The translations under genes were made by a program, and so were the position numbers. Positions 21,564-30,524 of a stretch of DNA of 37,581 bases are shown piece after piece; the stretch's first letter is position 1; every line of letters begins with the position of its first letter. The notes beneath the pieces are model-generated. The model ran no database searches. It worked only from the letters and a program-made list of their open reading frames with translations, and had not been told where the DNA came from. The stretch comes from an uncultured Eubacteriales bacterium (GTDB lineage: Bacteria > Bacillota > Sulfobacillia > UBA995 > UBA9673): NCBI GenBank assembly GCA_913063835.1, contig CAJXZV010000010.1, forward strand, positions 1 to 37,581, in the 5' to 3' direction.

Positions 21564-22916
21564 CTAGCCCTTGATGTCCCACTCCGCGGTCTTCCAGAAC
21601 CTGACCGCTTCGTCCGGGTTGCCCCACGTGCCGTAGCCCATGATGTCGTCCAGGCTGATGAAGAAGCTGTTGAAGGCCGGCGTGGTGGCGGCGACACCCT
21701 TGACCACGTCGTGCAGCCAGCTCTTCGGCTTGGAGAAGGGGCAGACCCGCAGGCAGATGCCGCAGCCCGTCCCGACCTCCTGCCAGAACTTGTAGCACTT
21801 CCACACGTGGACGTACCACCTGTCGCCACCGCCGCCGGGGTTGTTCGACGGGCACTGGGGTTCGTTGTAGTCGTCGTCGAACGGGATGGCTCCGGCCGGG
21901 CATTCCCGGGCGCACTTCTTGCAGGTCTTGCAGAACTCGCGGACCCCGAAGGATATCCGCTTGTCCGGCGCTATGGGGAGGTCCGTGAGGATCTTTATCG
22001 GCCGGAGGGCCGAACCGAGGACCGGGTTGACGAGCAGGCCGTGCCGACCCTGCTCACCGAGGCCGGCGTCGATGGCAGCCGGCACGCTCAGGCTGGTGTC
22101 GTTGCCCATCGGGAGGGCCTTGTAGCCGATCTGGCGGAGGAACTCGGCCATGGTGCCGGCGAGTTCGGCCATGCGCGAGTAGGCGATGCTGATGGCACCC
22201 TCACCGAGAGCCCCGGGGCAGAACTGCATGAGCTGGAGGTCGATGGGAACAAGGCAGACGATCATGGACTGCATCGACTTCGGGATGAGGTGGGCCTCAT
22301 CCGTGTGCGTGGGCGTGTCCACCTCGTCGGTGAAGACGTAGGGGATACCCTTCCTGTCGGACTCGTAGAACCACAGCTCGTTGACCTTGCAGACACCGAC
22401 GTCGGCGGCCCCGAACACGCGCGCCGCCTTCTTGACGACGATGTTCGCCTCCTCGGGAGTCCCCTTCCAGGGGCCGAGCTTTTCCAGCCAGCCCGTCTTG
22501 GCCACGCCGAGCGGCTCCCAGCTGTAGAAGTTGAAAGCACGGGTCCCGGTCCACCCGCAGTCGTACAGAGCATAGTCGAGCTGGGTGAAGCCAGGCTCCT
22601 TGGCCATCTGCTTCTCCAGGGCCACCTCTTTCTGGCTGGTCCCGGCGAGGAACTCCATGAGTTCGGGGGGACGGCCGAACGTGCTCTTCTTCTGGGGGAA
22701 CCTCTTCAGCCGACTTATGTCGTGCGGGAACTCGTCGATCTGCTTGATGGTGAACTTCGTCAGCGGGCCCGCGTTGAAGAGGCTGTTGGGCCCGTCGCTG
22801 ACGGCCAGGGCGGGACTTGACGCGGCAAGGACTCCCGCCGCACCGGCCAGAAGGCCGGCACCCTTGAGGAAGTCCCGGCGGTTGACCCCCTGGGCCTTCT
22901 TCTCTTGCTCGGTCAT
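21564..22916 (-). CDS. rdhA: Reductive dehalogenase catalytic subunit (RdhA), TAT-exported
   Basis: TAT signal NRRDFLKGAGLLAGAAGVLA; two Fe-S motifs CKTCKKCARECP and Cx10-CGICLRVCPF; VPAAIDAGLGEQGRHGLLVNPVLGSALRP is characteristic of RdhA/QueG-like corrinoid proteins. In-frame GTG at 22937 is an alternative start. Confidence 0.92.
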   Translation of the reverse strand: MTEQEKKAQGVNRRDFLKGAGLLAGAAGVLAASSPALAVSDGPNSLFNAGPLTKFTIKQIDEFPHDISRLKRFPQKKSTFGRPPELMEFLAGTSQKEVALEKQMAKEPGFTQLDYALYDCGWTGTRAFNFYSWEPLGVAKTGWLEKLGPWKGTPEEANIVVKKAARVFGAADVGVCKVNELWFYESDRKGIPYVFTDEVDTPTHTDEAHLIPKSMQSMIVCLVPIDLQLMQFCPGALGEGAISIAYSRMAELAGTMAEFLRQIGYKALPMGNDTSLSVPAAIDAGLGEQGRHGLLVNPVLGSALRPIKILTDLPIAPDKRISFGVREFCKTCKKCARECPAGAIPFDDDYNEPQCPSNNPGGGGDRWYVHVWKCYKFWQEVGTGCGICLRVCPFSKPKSWLHDVVKGVAATTPAFNSFFISLDDIMGYGTWGNPDEAVRFWKTAEWDIKG

Positions 22917-22956
22917 CTCCTTAGCCAACCTCCTCACACTGAGAACGTGAGCAAGC

Positions 22957-23250
22957 TCATGCGCTGGCGCCGGTCCTGCGGGCGGTCTTCACTATCAGCA
23001 GGCGAAGAAGGATGAAGAGGACCACGCCGATGCCGCCGAAGATGAGCCCGCCGGCCGTGGCCGCCTGCGGGTACCCCTCCGCCACGCTCGTACCGATCCA
23101 GGCCGCCACGAACAGGGCCCAGAGCGCGACGACGGCGACACCCAGCCAGTGGTACCAGACGAGAGCGACGCCTTCCCTCTTCGCCCAGCCGAGGAGAGCC
23201 TGGACGGCCCAGAAGGCCACAGCTCCCAGCAGGAAGTACATGAGAACCAT
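22957..23250 (-). CDS. rdhB: Putative reductive dehalogenase membrane anchor RdhB
   Basis: 97 aa, three predicted TM helices, immediately upstream of and co-directional with rdhA; AAGGAGG at 23258-23264. Confidence 0.75.
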   Translation of the reverse strand: MVLMYFLLGAVAFWAVQALLGWAKREGVALVWYHWLGVAVVALWALFVAAWIGTSVAEGYPQAATAGGLIFGGIGVVLFILLRLLIVKTARRTGASA

Positions 23251-23298: not shown

Positions 23299-23383
23299 AA
23301 CGTGCCGAAAGGGCTTGGATTCTGGCGTGATGGGACTTCTCAGTGGAACGGTTGTCGTGTCAGGACGGTTCACCACACCGTCC

Positions 23384-23425
23384 ATGCTACTCACGCCTGA
23401 GAGGGGTGTCTGTAGCACGTGCTAC
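23384..23425 (-). promoter_or_regulatory. Predicted class II Crp/Fnr-activated promoter of rdhBA: GTA-N8-TAC-N22-TAGCAT
   Basis: Minus strand TGTAGCACGTGCTACAGACACCCCTCTCAGGCGTGAGTAGCAT; palindrome centred at 23418.5, -10 box TAGCAT at 23389-23384, predicted TSS about 23377 so operator centre is at -41.5. Confidence 0.7.
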
Positions 23426-23426
23426 A
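23411..23426. promoter_or_regulatory. Perfect 16-bp palindrome TGTAGCACGTGCTACA (operator 1)
   Basis: Sequence equals its own reverse complement; GTAGC-N4-GCTAC geometry. Confidence 0.8.
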
Positions 23427-23442
23427 AGGGGTTTCGCCCTCA

Positions 23443-23456
23443 GTAGCCCAGGCTAC
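23443..23456. promoter_or_regulatory. GTAGC-CCAG-GCTAC inverted repeat (operator 2)
   Basis: Same 5-4-5 half-site motif as operator 1, centre 31 bp upstream (-72.5). Confidence 0.75.
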
Positions 23457-23487: not shown

Positions 23488-24186
23488 CTAAGGGATGACC
23501 ACCTTTCTCAGGAACTCGACGGCCTTGGGGGGGATGAGAGCCGGCTCTCCGCCCCGGAACCCGCAGAGGACCGCCAGGCGGGCCATGAAGGCGGTCTTCA
23601 GGCTCTCCTCGAGGGCGAAGGTGATGTTCAGGGCCTCGCGCAGGTCCCGGCCGACCGTCACGAGGCCGTGGTTCCGGAGCAGGACCGCCGGCCCGCGGGC
23701 GAGCGCCTCGGCCGTCCTGACGGCGAGGTCGTTGCTTCCCGGCGCCGCGAACGGCACGGTCCTGAGCTCCGTGAAGCGCACGGCCTCGAGGGTGAGAGGC
23801 GGCACGGGCTCTTCGAAAAGGCTCCACACCGTGGCCAGCGGCGCATGGGTGTGGACGACCGCTCCGACGTCCGGGCGGGAGGCGTAGACGGCCAGGTGCA
23901 TCCCTGTCTCCACGGAGGGCCTTATCCGCGCCCCGCTGCTGCCGGTCGGGGGCGGCTCCCGCACGGGCCTGCCCTGGTCGTCCACCTCGAGGACGTGCTC
24001 CGGACCGAGCCCGCCCTTGAAGATCTGGCTGGCCGTGATGAGGATGTGGCCGGTGTCGGGGAGTCTGACACTGACGTTGCCTCCGGTGGGGGTTATGAGT
24101 CCGTGCTCGTAGAGTTCGTTCACGGTCTCGACCACGGCCTGCTTCAGGGCCGGCAGGCGGTCGTCCCGGGTCTGTCCAGATGCCAT
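23488..24186 (-). CDS. Class II aldolase/adducin family protein (L-fuculose-phosphate aldolase-like)
   Basis: TPTGGNVSVR, HLAVYASRPDVGAVVHTHAPLATVWS, LLRNHGLVTVGRDLREAL: zinc-binding HTH and HG motifs. Confidence 0.92.
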   Translation of the reverse strand: MASGQTRDDRLPALKQAVVETVNELYEHGLITPTGGNVSVRLPDTGHILITASQIFKGGLGPEHVLEVDDQGRPVREPPPTGSSGARIRPSVETGMHLAVYASRPDVGAVVHTHAPLATVWSLFEEPVPPLTLEAVRFTELRTVPFAAPGSNDLAVRTAEALARGPAVLLRNHGLVTVGRDLREALNITFALEESLKTAFMARLAVLCGFRGGEPALIPPKAVEFLRKVVIP

Positions 24187-28186: not shown

Positions 28187-28318
28187 GGCGCCGTCCGGCG
28201 AGGGGGGCGCCGACGGCAGGAAATCGGGATTTACATACTAAATAAAGGCTAATCCTAAGCAATAATCCTGTGCACCGCCCTACTGCTCCCGTGATGAGGG
28301 GCCGGGGAGGGACACCTG

Positions 28319-29050
28319 ATGGAGGAACAGCGTCCGACCGGCAGTGATGACTTCTGCGGGGACATCCGCTACGCCGACCCTGTCCTGCCTCTGGACTTGG
28401 GCCCGTGGCCGGAGGTCTTCGAGACGGCTCCGAGCAAGGTCCTGAAGGCCGGGACCGTCTTCAGCTACATCGGGCCGGAGCACGGCCTCTACTTCATCGA
28501 GAGCGGGCAGGTCCGCTTCTTCGCCGTGTCGGCGCGCGGCACGGAGAAGACGTTCTGCATCCTCGGCCCCGGAGCGATGTTCGGTGAGGCCAACCTCGTC
28601 GACCCGACCCCCACCCGCTGGCTCGCCACACCCCTCACCGACACGGTCGTCAGGGTGCTGGACGTCAGGACGGCCCGCCGGCTCATGGAGGAGCGCCCCG
28701 AGCTGACCTGGGCCCTTCTCTCCGCTCTCATCATGCGGATGAAGCTGCTCGGCAAGCAGATGGCCGACCAGTGCTTCCGCACGGTTCCCAGCCGCATCGC
28801 GTGCCTCATCCTGGCCAGGTCGGCCCGTGACGGTGGAGAGGGCCCGGCGCAGGCCGGCGACCGGGCAGGCGGGCGCACCAGGCTCACCCATGACGACATA
28901 GCCCGGCTCGTCGGGTCGAACCGCGTCACCGTCACCCGCACCCTGCGGACCCTGCAGAGCCGAGGGCTCATCCGCTACGAGCGCAACCTCGAGACGGTGA
29001 CCATCCTCGACCGGCCGGGTCTGGAGGCCGTGGCCGAGGAAGACCTCTAG
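28319..29050 (+). CDS. Crp/Fnr family transcriptional regulator, CprK/RdhK-like
   Basis: Cyclic-nucleotide-binding-like fold (YFIESGQVRFFAV...GPGAMFGEANLV) and HTH LTHDDIARLVGSNRVTVTRTLRTLQSRGLI; N-terminal DFCG motif; encoded near rdhBA. Confidence 0.85.
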   Translation: MEEQRPTGSDDFCGDIRYADPVLPLDLGPWPEVFETAPSKVLKAGTVFSYIGPEHGLYFIESGQVRFFAVSARGTEKTFCILGPGAMFGEANLVDPTPTRWLATPLTDTVVRVLDVRTARRLMEERPELTWALLSALIMRMKLLGKQMADQCFRTVPSRIACLILARSARDGGEGPAQAGDRAGGRTRLTHDDIARLVGSNRVTVTRTLRTLQSRGLIRYERNLETVTILDRPGLEAVAEEDL

Positions 29051-29397
29051 GGACTCGAGGCGTCGTCCTCCTCGGGACCCTCCCGGAAGGACGCCGGGGA
29101 GCCGCCGGCCGCCCCTGCCGTTGTCGGAAGGCGGAATATCTGCCGGGCGGTCCTGACGATCCAGCTCCAGTGAAGGGCCAGGTGGAGGATGACGAGGCCG
29201 ACGAGGGCGAGGTTCGCCACGGTGTGGACCTCGCGGACCTCCTCGCGGGTCCCGAGGAAGGGAAGGAGGTCCGTGCCGAGGCGGCCGGCGCGCCCGCGGG
29301 GGATGAAGAAGGCCAGGGCTATGCCGGTGTAGGCGCCGACGAGGCCTGTGAGAAGGAGGACCGCGTCGACGAGGAACAGGAGGCGGTTTCTGGTCAT
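29047..29397 (-). CDS. DUF4405-like small membrane protein (cytochrome b561-like)
   Basis: MTRNRLLFLVDAVLLLTGLVGAYTGI... EVHTVANLALVGLVILHLALHWSWIV; start trimmed from the ORF track to ATG 29397. Confidence 0.7.
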   Translation of the reverse strand: MTRNRLLFLVDAVLLLTGLVGAYTGIALAFFIPRGRAGRLGTDLLPFLGTREEVREVHTVANLALVGLVILHLALHWSWIVRTARQIFRLPTTAGAAGGSPASFREGPEEDDASSP

Positions 29398-29513
29398 GCC
29401 TCTCCCTCCAGGTGTCGTGGTCGCGCAACGGTTGCGGCCCCGGGGAGGCTCGGGGGCCCTCGGCGGTGAAAGGCCTTCCTTAGTATGCCCGCCATCTGAC
29501 ATGACCGGGGCGG

Positions 29514-30524
29514 TCAGGCCCGGACGTCCAGGCACCGCCGCAGGGCTTCCAGGCAGCGGTCGATGTCCCGGACGGTCCCGACGGTGATGCGGATGTGGCG
29601 GGCGAGCGCCGGCTCTCGGGGGTAGTGGCGGACCCGGACGCCTTCGTCCCTCATGGCCGCCTCGACCTCGGCCGCAGGGTGAGGCACACGGCAGAGGACG
29701 AAGTTCGTGAGGGAGGGCAGGGGGGTCACCCCGGGAAGGGCGGCCAGGCCCTCGGACAGCCGCCGTCGCCCCTCGACGGTCCGGACGACGACATCCTTCA
29801 CGTAGGACGGGTCAGTCAGGACGGCCGACCCGACGAGCTCGGCGAGGGCCCCGATGTTGAACGGCTGCCTGGTCTCGTCGAGCCGCTCGACCACCTCCGG
29901 CGAGGCCAACGCGAACCCCACCCTGAGGCCGGCCAGGCAGAAGGCCTTGGACATGGTTCTCAGGATGATGAGGTTGGGGTGCCTTTCCAGGAGGTGCACG
30001 ACGGTGCCCCCCGCGAACTCCCAGTAGGCCTCGTCGACGACGACCCACGGCCTGGGCCGGACGGTGAGGAGTCGGCCGAGGTCCTCTTCGGAAAGGACGC
30101 GGTTCCCGGTGGGGTTGTTCGGGAGGCAGGCGAAGACCAGTGAGGGGTCCCGGCTCGCCTCACGGAGGAGGGCCTGTGTGTCGGCGCGGAAGGCGTTCCC
30201 CTCCACCTCGAGGGGGACCCTCACGACCTCCAGCCCGGCAAGGGCGGCCGCCCGGGAGTACTCGGGGAAGGTGGGTGGCATGACCACGACCCGGCGCACG
30301 GACGGGCGCAGGGCGAGGACGGTCATGTTGATGGCTTCGTCGCCGCCGTTGAAGGCGGCGACCTGTTCGGGCCGCACCCCCGCGTAGGCCGCGTAGAGCC
30401 CGCGGAGACGCGGCGCTCCCCGGGGCGGGTAGCGGTTGAGCGCGAGGTCCTCCGGCCTGAGGACCCGCGAGAGGATGTGCGCTGGGACCCTGTAGGGACT
30501 CTCGTTGAGGTGGAGGGAGAGCAT
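29514..30524 (-). CDS. HisC-like class I/II aminotransferase (histidinol-phosphate aminotransferase family)
   Basis: LNESPYRVP, NPTGNRVLSEEDL, VVDEAYWEFAGG, RTMSKAFCLAGLRVGFA; AAGGGAG SD before ATG 30524. Confidence 0.88.
   Translation of the reverse strand: MLSLHLNESPYRVPAHILSRVLRPEDLALNRYPPRGAPRLRGLYAAYAGVRPEQVAAFNGGDEAINMTVLALRPSVRRVVVMPPTFPEYSRAAALAGLEVVRVPLEVEGNAFRADTQALLREASRDPSLVFACLPNNPTGNRVLSEEDLGRLLTVRPRPWVVVDEAYWEFAGGTVVHLLERHPNLIILRTMSKAFCLAGLRVGFALASPEVVERLDETRQPFNIGALAELVGSAVLTDPSYVKDVVVRTVEGRRRLSEGLAALPGVTPLPSLTNFVLCRVPHPAAEVEAAMRDEGVRVRHYPREPALARHIRITVGTVRDIDRCLEALRRCLDVRA

Follow-up and report, generated by a model that had tools for sequence, protein, structure and literature searches.

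We found that the two palindromes upstream of the reductive dehalogenase genes rdhBA in the window (the whole stretch of 37,581 nucleotides analysed here) are, judging from sequence comparison, very probably operators of a dimeric Crp/Fnr activator; the proximal one would form a class II promoter within a compact organohalide-respiration regulon that extends over two genera of one family, with a Crp protein encoded on contig C18 as its probable regulator. The wider proposition, that a dedicated, self-controlling Crp/Fnr protein outside the RdhK and NtcA families reads GTAGC-N4-GCTAC and runs a chromosome-wide organohalide-respiration regulon in which the dehalogenase is coupled to the covalent attachment of flavin, to Tat export and to a new membrane microprotein, is one that we hold to be only a little better than evenly balanced. 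RdhK control, as known so far, is exerted on rdh clusters, and we know of no described dehalogenation biology in the present lineage.

The operon is encoded on the minus strand. Its first gene (22957..23250) codes for an rdhB-like small membrane protein of 97 amino acids, named by position and without a Pfam hit, and is followed by rdhA (21564..22937), which codes for a reductive dehalogenase that is exported via Tat and has two 4Fe-4S motifs (TIGR02486, 248.6 bits). The closest named RdhA relative in GTDB, from a Desulfobacterales MAG, is only 43% identical, and thus no closer footprint is available. Upstream and in the same direction as the rdh genes lies a class II aldolase gene (23488-24186, minus strand, stop at 23488), beyond which come divergent hydantoinase A/B genes and then a Crp/Fnr-family gene on the plus strand (28319..29050). 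Convergent with this crp gene is a gene for a DUF4405 or cytochrome b561-like membrane protein (29047-29535, minus strand), and upstream of the crp gene is an AT-rich inverted repeat, ATTTA-N5-TAAAT (28229-28243), unlike the GTA boxes described below.

Both palindromes lie in the 237-bp gap between the aldolase gene and the rdhB-like gene. Operator 1, the proximal site, is a perfect 16-bp palindrome, TGTAGCACGTGCTACA (23411..23426, minus strand), with a GTA-N8-TAC core and its centre at 23418.5 (predicted -41.5); operator 2, the distal site, is GTAGCCTGGGCTAC (23443..23456, minus strand), with its centre at 23449.5 (predicted -72.5). The centres are 31 bp, or about three helical turns, apart, and operator 1 is followed after 22 nt by a predicted -10 element, TAGCAT (23384..23389, minus strand); the operator GTAGCACGTGCTAC and this hexamer make up the rdhBA promoter. 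The implied transcription start, at 23377 on the minus strand, derives from geometry only, by analogy with NtcA class II promoters (PMC3898017). Palindromes, spacing and the distance to TAGCAT, as read on the minus strand, agree to the base with the earlier note, which had also placed operator 2 correctly but had written it as 'AGTAGCC..GGCTACT'; AGTAGCC is the plus-strand reading, and the flanks on the rdh strand are TTGTAGCC...GGCTACTG. No sigma-70 -35/-10 pair was seen in the gap, and the TGn directly before the -10 element is missing, alone among the N22 promoters of this genome.

As each palindrome can form a hairpin of 5-6 bp some 30-60 nt past the aldolase stop codon, and the RNA fold reaches -35.2 kcal/mol, the pair could also be read as RNA elements of the aldolase gene, serving as terminator or as processing hairpins. 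There is no T-run, however, and no terminator was called in the gap; the fold has a modest z-score of -1.58 and is equalled in 14 of 200 shuffles, and no RNA family was matched at threshold. The same boxes also occur before unrelated genes at a fixed distance from the -10 element. We therefore rejected this reading, which we consider very improbable.

We searched for the sites by pattern in the complete assembly (G000; 2,303,886 bases, 181 contigs, 93% complete), with the reversed pattern as control. Exact GTAGCN4GCTAC occurs twice in the whole assembly, both times at rdhBA, and the reversed pattern four times, elsewhere. When one or two mismatches were allowed, the motif was not enriched in the window or in the genome (24 matches against 268 for the control in the genome). 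This indicates that the signal lies in the clustering of the two sites and in the geometry of the promoter rather than in abundance, and motif abundance alone was rejected as evidence. The earlier note had raised the prospect of a motif at random frequency with no rdh association; the pair proved unique in its exact form and layout matches do precede rdh genes, but the relaxed motif gave no enrichment.

In an out-of-sample query of four genomes of the family, GTA-N8-TAC-N22-TAN3T had four matches in G000 and five in a second genome (G002), with no reversed match in either, and one match in each of the other two (G001 and G003). The version with N23 added five matches, four of them before the same gene set, including the crp genes and the apbE side in both genomes; the fifth, at C45:12186, looks like part of a coding region. 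When the spacing was left free between 10 and 40 nt, nine of the 12 GTAG-type matches fell at 22 or 23 nt (binomial tail 4e-9, or about 1e-5 with each operator counted once; both approximate, as one match was reported per start). A box near -41.5 with a -10 element at fixed distance is what characterizes a class II Crp/Fnr promoter, and spacings of 22 and 23 nt stand far above the others. The NtcA-like class II layout with a GC-type box, as the earlier note had proposed it, thus recurs before organohalide-respiration genes in two genomes. That two palindromes and a TAN3T should have come together by chance is barely credible: the pattern was admittedly chosen after the sequence had been seen, and the TAN3T match alone is expected at about 0.3% in 70% GC DNA (our own estimate), but the predicted layout has nine matches against none for the control in the two genomes, and the majority of these precede orthologs.

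In a scan of 154 genomes from the class, the layout with a TANNAT form of the -10 element had four matches against zero in G000 and four against zero in G002, and none of the other 152 genomes showed a comparable excess over control. The operator TGTAGCN4GCTACA was matched in seven of the 154, mostly inside genes or in a terminator, and was rejected as a class-wide motif by itself. Orthologous promoters were counted in the same two draft genomes in which they were found; as the regulon is present in two genomes only, its conservation rests on a single comparison.

Two observations were made elsewhere in the class. Contig C203 of G003 (L213:1-403) carries GTATCCCGAGATAC-N22-TACGCT before an 84-aa RdhB-like membrane ORF extending up to the end of the contig, and our searches of G003 found no RdhA or Crp relatives. 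In a different family, four genomes (G052, G036, G100 and G103; L194, L195, L196 and L198) have a conserved Crp-type class II promoter between crp-like and ferredoxin-like genes, with GTAAC-N4-GTTAC or a near form, N22 and mostly TATAAT.

Nearly all promoter matches stand before orthologous genes in G000 and G002. Their consensus is tTGTAGC-N4-GCTACAG with a -10 of TAgcAT, often with TGn directly before it, and the half-sites are GTAGC or GTAAC. In G002, an rdhA gene has the operator GTAACCTTCGCTAC and the -10 element TAAGAT. A gene for an rdhC-like FMN_bind/Fer4_5 membrane protein has the promoter in both genomes (proteins 60% identical), as do hepS(Gx)-tatA-tatC at N22 (tatC 70% identical) and apbE-nusG-II at N23 (apbE 56% identical); in each genome, both the rdhC-like gene and the hepS-tat genes are preceded by the hexamer TAGCAT at the same distance as rdhBA. 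A single operator serves the divergent apbE-nusG (23 nt) and hepS-tatAC (22 nt) units in both genomes (L205:7298-7311 and L206:4129-4142). On the contigs, apbE and rdhC are not linked, and their one connection is the common promoter type. Both genomes likewise have a Crp/Fnr gene with the promoter at N23, on C18 in G000 and C22 in G002 (57% identical), and in each case a gene for an iron-sulfur protein comes next; in G002 only, a crp gene beside rdhA on contig C71 has the operator GTAATATGTGTTAC, N22 and TAAGCT. Three other rdhA genes of G000 (on C21, C94 and C95) have no such promoter within one mismatch, and hence the dehalogenases are not all controlled by it.

The remaining target is a microprotein gene with its own class II promoter, of 39 aa in G000 (C45, L209:2766-2885) and 33 aa in G002 (C15, L210:2429-2530). 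Both products have a single membrane span and share the stretch LAAILLLVFIWPT, and over 14 codons the pair has seven synonymous differences against one non-synonymous. The resemblance to FixS is weak (18.9 bits, below cut-off). The gene lies between one resembling alpha/beta-hydrolase genes and one resembling CAAX-protease genes.

These promoters also bear on the sign of control. The sites might instead be recognized by a repressor or by some protein of a different family, with the class II Crp likeness being incidental, and many repressor families do use perfect palindromes. This seems unlikely, given that the distance to TAN3T is 22 or 23 nt in about a dozen promoters, that a sigma-70 -35 element is absent and that the same box stands before a crp gene in both genomes. 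We infer activation by a Crp/Fnr dimer: bound to operator 1 at -41.5, it would contact RNA polymerase and substitute for the missing -35 element. Operator 2, three helical turns upstream, may hold a second dimer that strengthens or cooperates with the first. The spacing fits the earlier suggestion of two dimers on one face of the DNA, but the 45 bp upstream of the other promoters of the set contain no second complete operator at 31-bp spacing, and a site like operator 2 has so far been seen at rdhBA alone.

The assembly has two clear Crp/Fnr genes, the one in the window and the one on contig C18. The earlier note had named the window protein, and in a variant of the present reading this protein would activate the same class II regulon, alone or with the C18 protein. 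Its gene and the operon are about 5 kb apart, GTA boxes suit its recognition helix, GSNRVTVTR, and in G002 a crp gene adjoins three of the four rdhA genes. It has no ortholog in G002, however (30-31% identity at best), despite the same promoters there, no GTA-N8-TAC box was found in its own promoter region, and the gene lies beyond the hydantoinase genes in the orientation opposite to rdh. We have demoted it to second choice, possible but rather doubtful. Parsimony instead favours the C18 protein, which is probably the regulator, because it has an ortholog in G002, the promoter precedes both copies and operator 2 differs by one base from the crp operator on G002 contig C22, GTAGCCTGGACTAC. The assembly completeness leaves room for a third Crp/Fnr protein.

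The recognition helices of the two candidates, RVTVTR in the window protein and RVSVTE in the C18 protein, share the R-V that is also found in NtcA-type proteins. The C18 protein, whose only close relative in the class is the G002 protein, carries E at a helix position that is R in CRP and NtcA-type proteins, and its base preference therefore cannot be read confidently. Of 57 Crp proteins checked for autoregulation, few are encoded by genes with a GTA or GTG box in front. The helix code is to be taken as suggestive. The C18 and C22 proteins (L211:3921-4604 and L212:1137-1781) have two effector-domain cysteines in common, in RLRCSVV and GD-CGET, and by eye lack the usual arginine-serine of cAMP binding; a redox or small-molecule switch is possible, and an organohalide effector, by analogy with CprK/RdhK, would be a guess.

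The crp genes beside three rdhA genes of G002 (L038, L039 and L040, on contigs C39, C71 and C70) code for differing helices (RVTVTL, RVAVTR and RVTVTK). Distinct palindromes, TGTAATATGTGTTACA and TGTGATGATTGTCACT, lie near two of them, and GTTGTCCGGACAAC lies upstream of the third crp-adjacent rdhA. These neighbours are possibly RdhK-like pairs with diverged specificities.

Under the preferred reading of a Crp/Fnr-activated regulon, rdhBA, the rdhC-like gene, apbE with nusG-II and the hepS/Gx-type genes, tatA and tatC, the microprotein gene and the regulator's own gene would be activated together. The list would correspond to the needs of organohalide respiration: the enzyme, a route for its export (RdhA has a Tat signal), a covalent-flavin electron carrier and the enzyme that attaches the flavin. 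One box type would thereby connect genes that are not linked, namely those for protein export, the dehalogenase, the presumed electron carrier between quinol and the dehalogenase, and the enzyme flavinylating carriers of this kind; the shared box provides independent support, from genetic context, for the still-debated role of RdhC/PceC as a flavinylated electron-transfer partner of RdhA. The microprotein is a candidate new component. With a box as readable as GTAGC-N4-GCTAC-N22-TAGCAT, further members may be sought in genomes beyond cultivation, and how dehalogenation is controlled in a lineage not studied before can be tested directly.

Among known systems, the class II promoters of cyanobacterial NtcA have GTAN8TAC at -41.5 and TAN3T after 22 nt (PMC3898017). 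Core, spacing and -10 element are identical in the present layout, whereas host and genes differ, and neither present Crp reaches the cut-off of the NtcA model (TIGR03697 scores of the Crp/Fnr proteins are 50.8, 36.9 and 44.9 bits, against 244.95), so that they do not qualify as NtcA orthologs. In genomes from Aarhus Bay, NtcA- and CRP-type sites have been predicted before reductive dehalogenase genes, with an NtcA-like box before one; that site, GTATAAATATAAAC, lacks the TAC half, and the parts of the report available to us describe no regulon or spacing test (PMC12090745). We found no description of the present box or regulon in the literature searched, which was covered in part.

RdhC proteins are defined by [S/T]G[A/S]TX[S/T] and two CX3CP motifs, and an electron-transfer role has been proposed for them (PMC5928378). 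As in RdhC/PceC with Ftp/ApbE flavinylation, the G002 protein has FMN_bind and Fer4_5 domains, both CX3CP motifs and the FMN motif TGATFT; the G000 protein deviates, with TSATFT and with CX3CA in the second motif.

Another known system is CprK/RdhK of Desulfitobacterium. Dehalobox DB7, TTAAT-N4-ATTAA, is a 5-N4-5 repeat centred at -41.5 of an rdhBA-type operon, and RdhK boxes read TTAAT or TTAGT (PMC7062800). The present box before rdhBA has the same 5-N4-5 geometry and, by prediction, the same position, and the half-site GCTAA of DB8, TTAGTatacGCTAA, is one base from GCTAC. The present half-sites, however, are GTAGC or GTAAC with an invariant GTA-N8-TAC core, and none is TTAAT or TTAGT. By score, the C18 and window proteins are closer to CRP of E. 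coli or of mycobacteria than to CprK (for C18, 56 bits with E. coli CRP against 30-31 bits with CprK structures; for the window protein, no CprK match at 1e-3). Finally, the favoured regulator is not encoded beside the operon, and its putative regulon further includes rdhC and the genes for flavinylation and Tat export.
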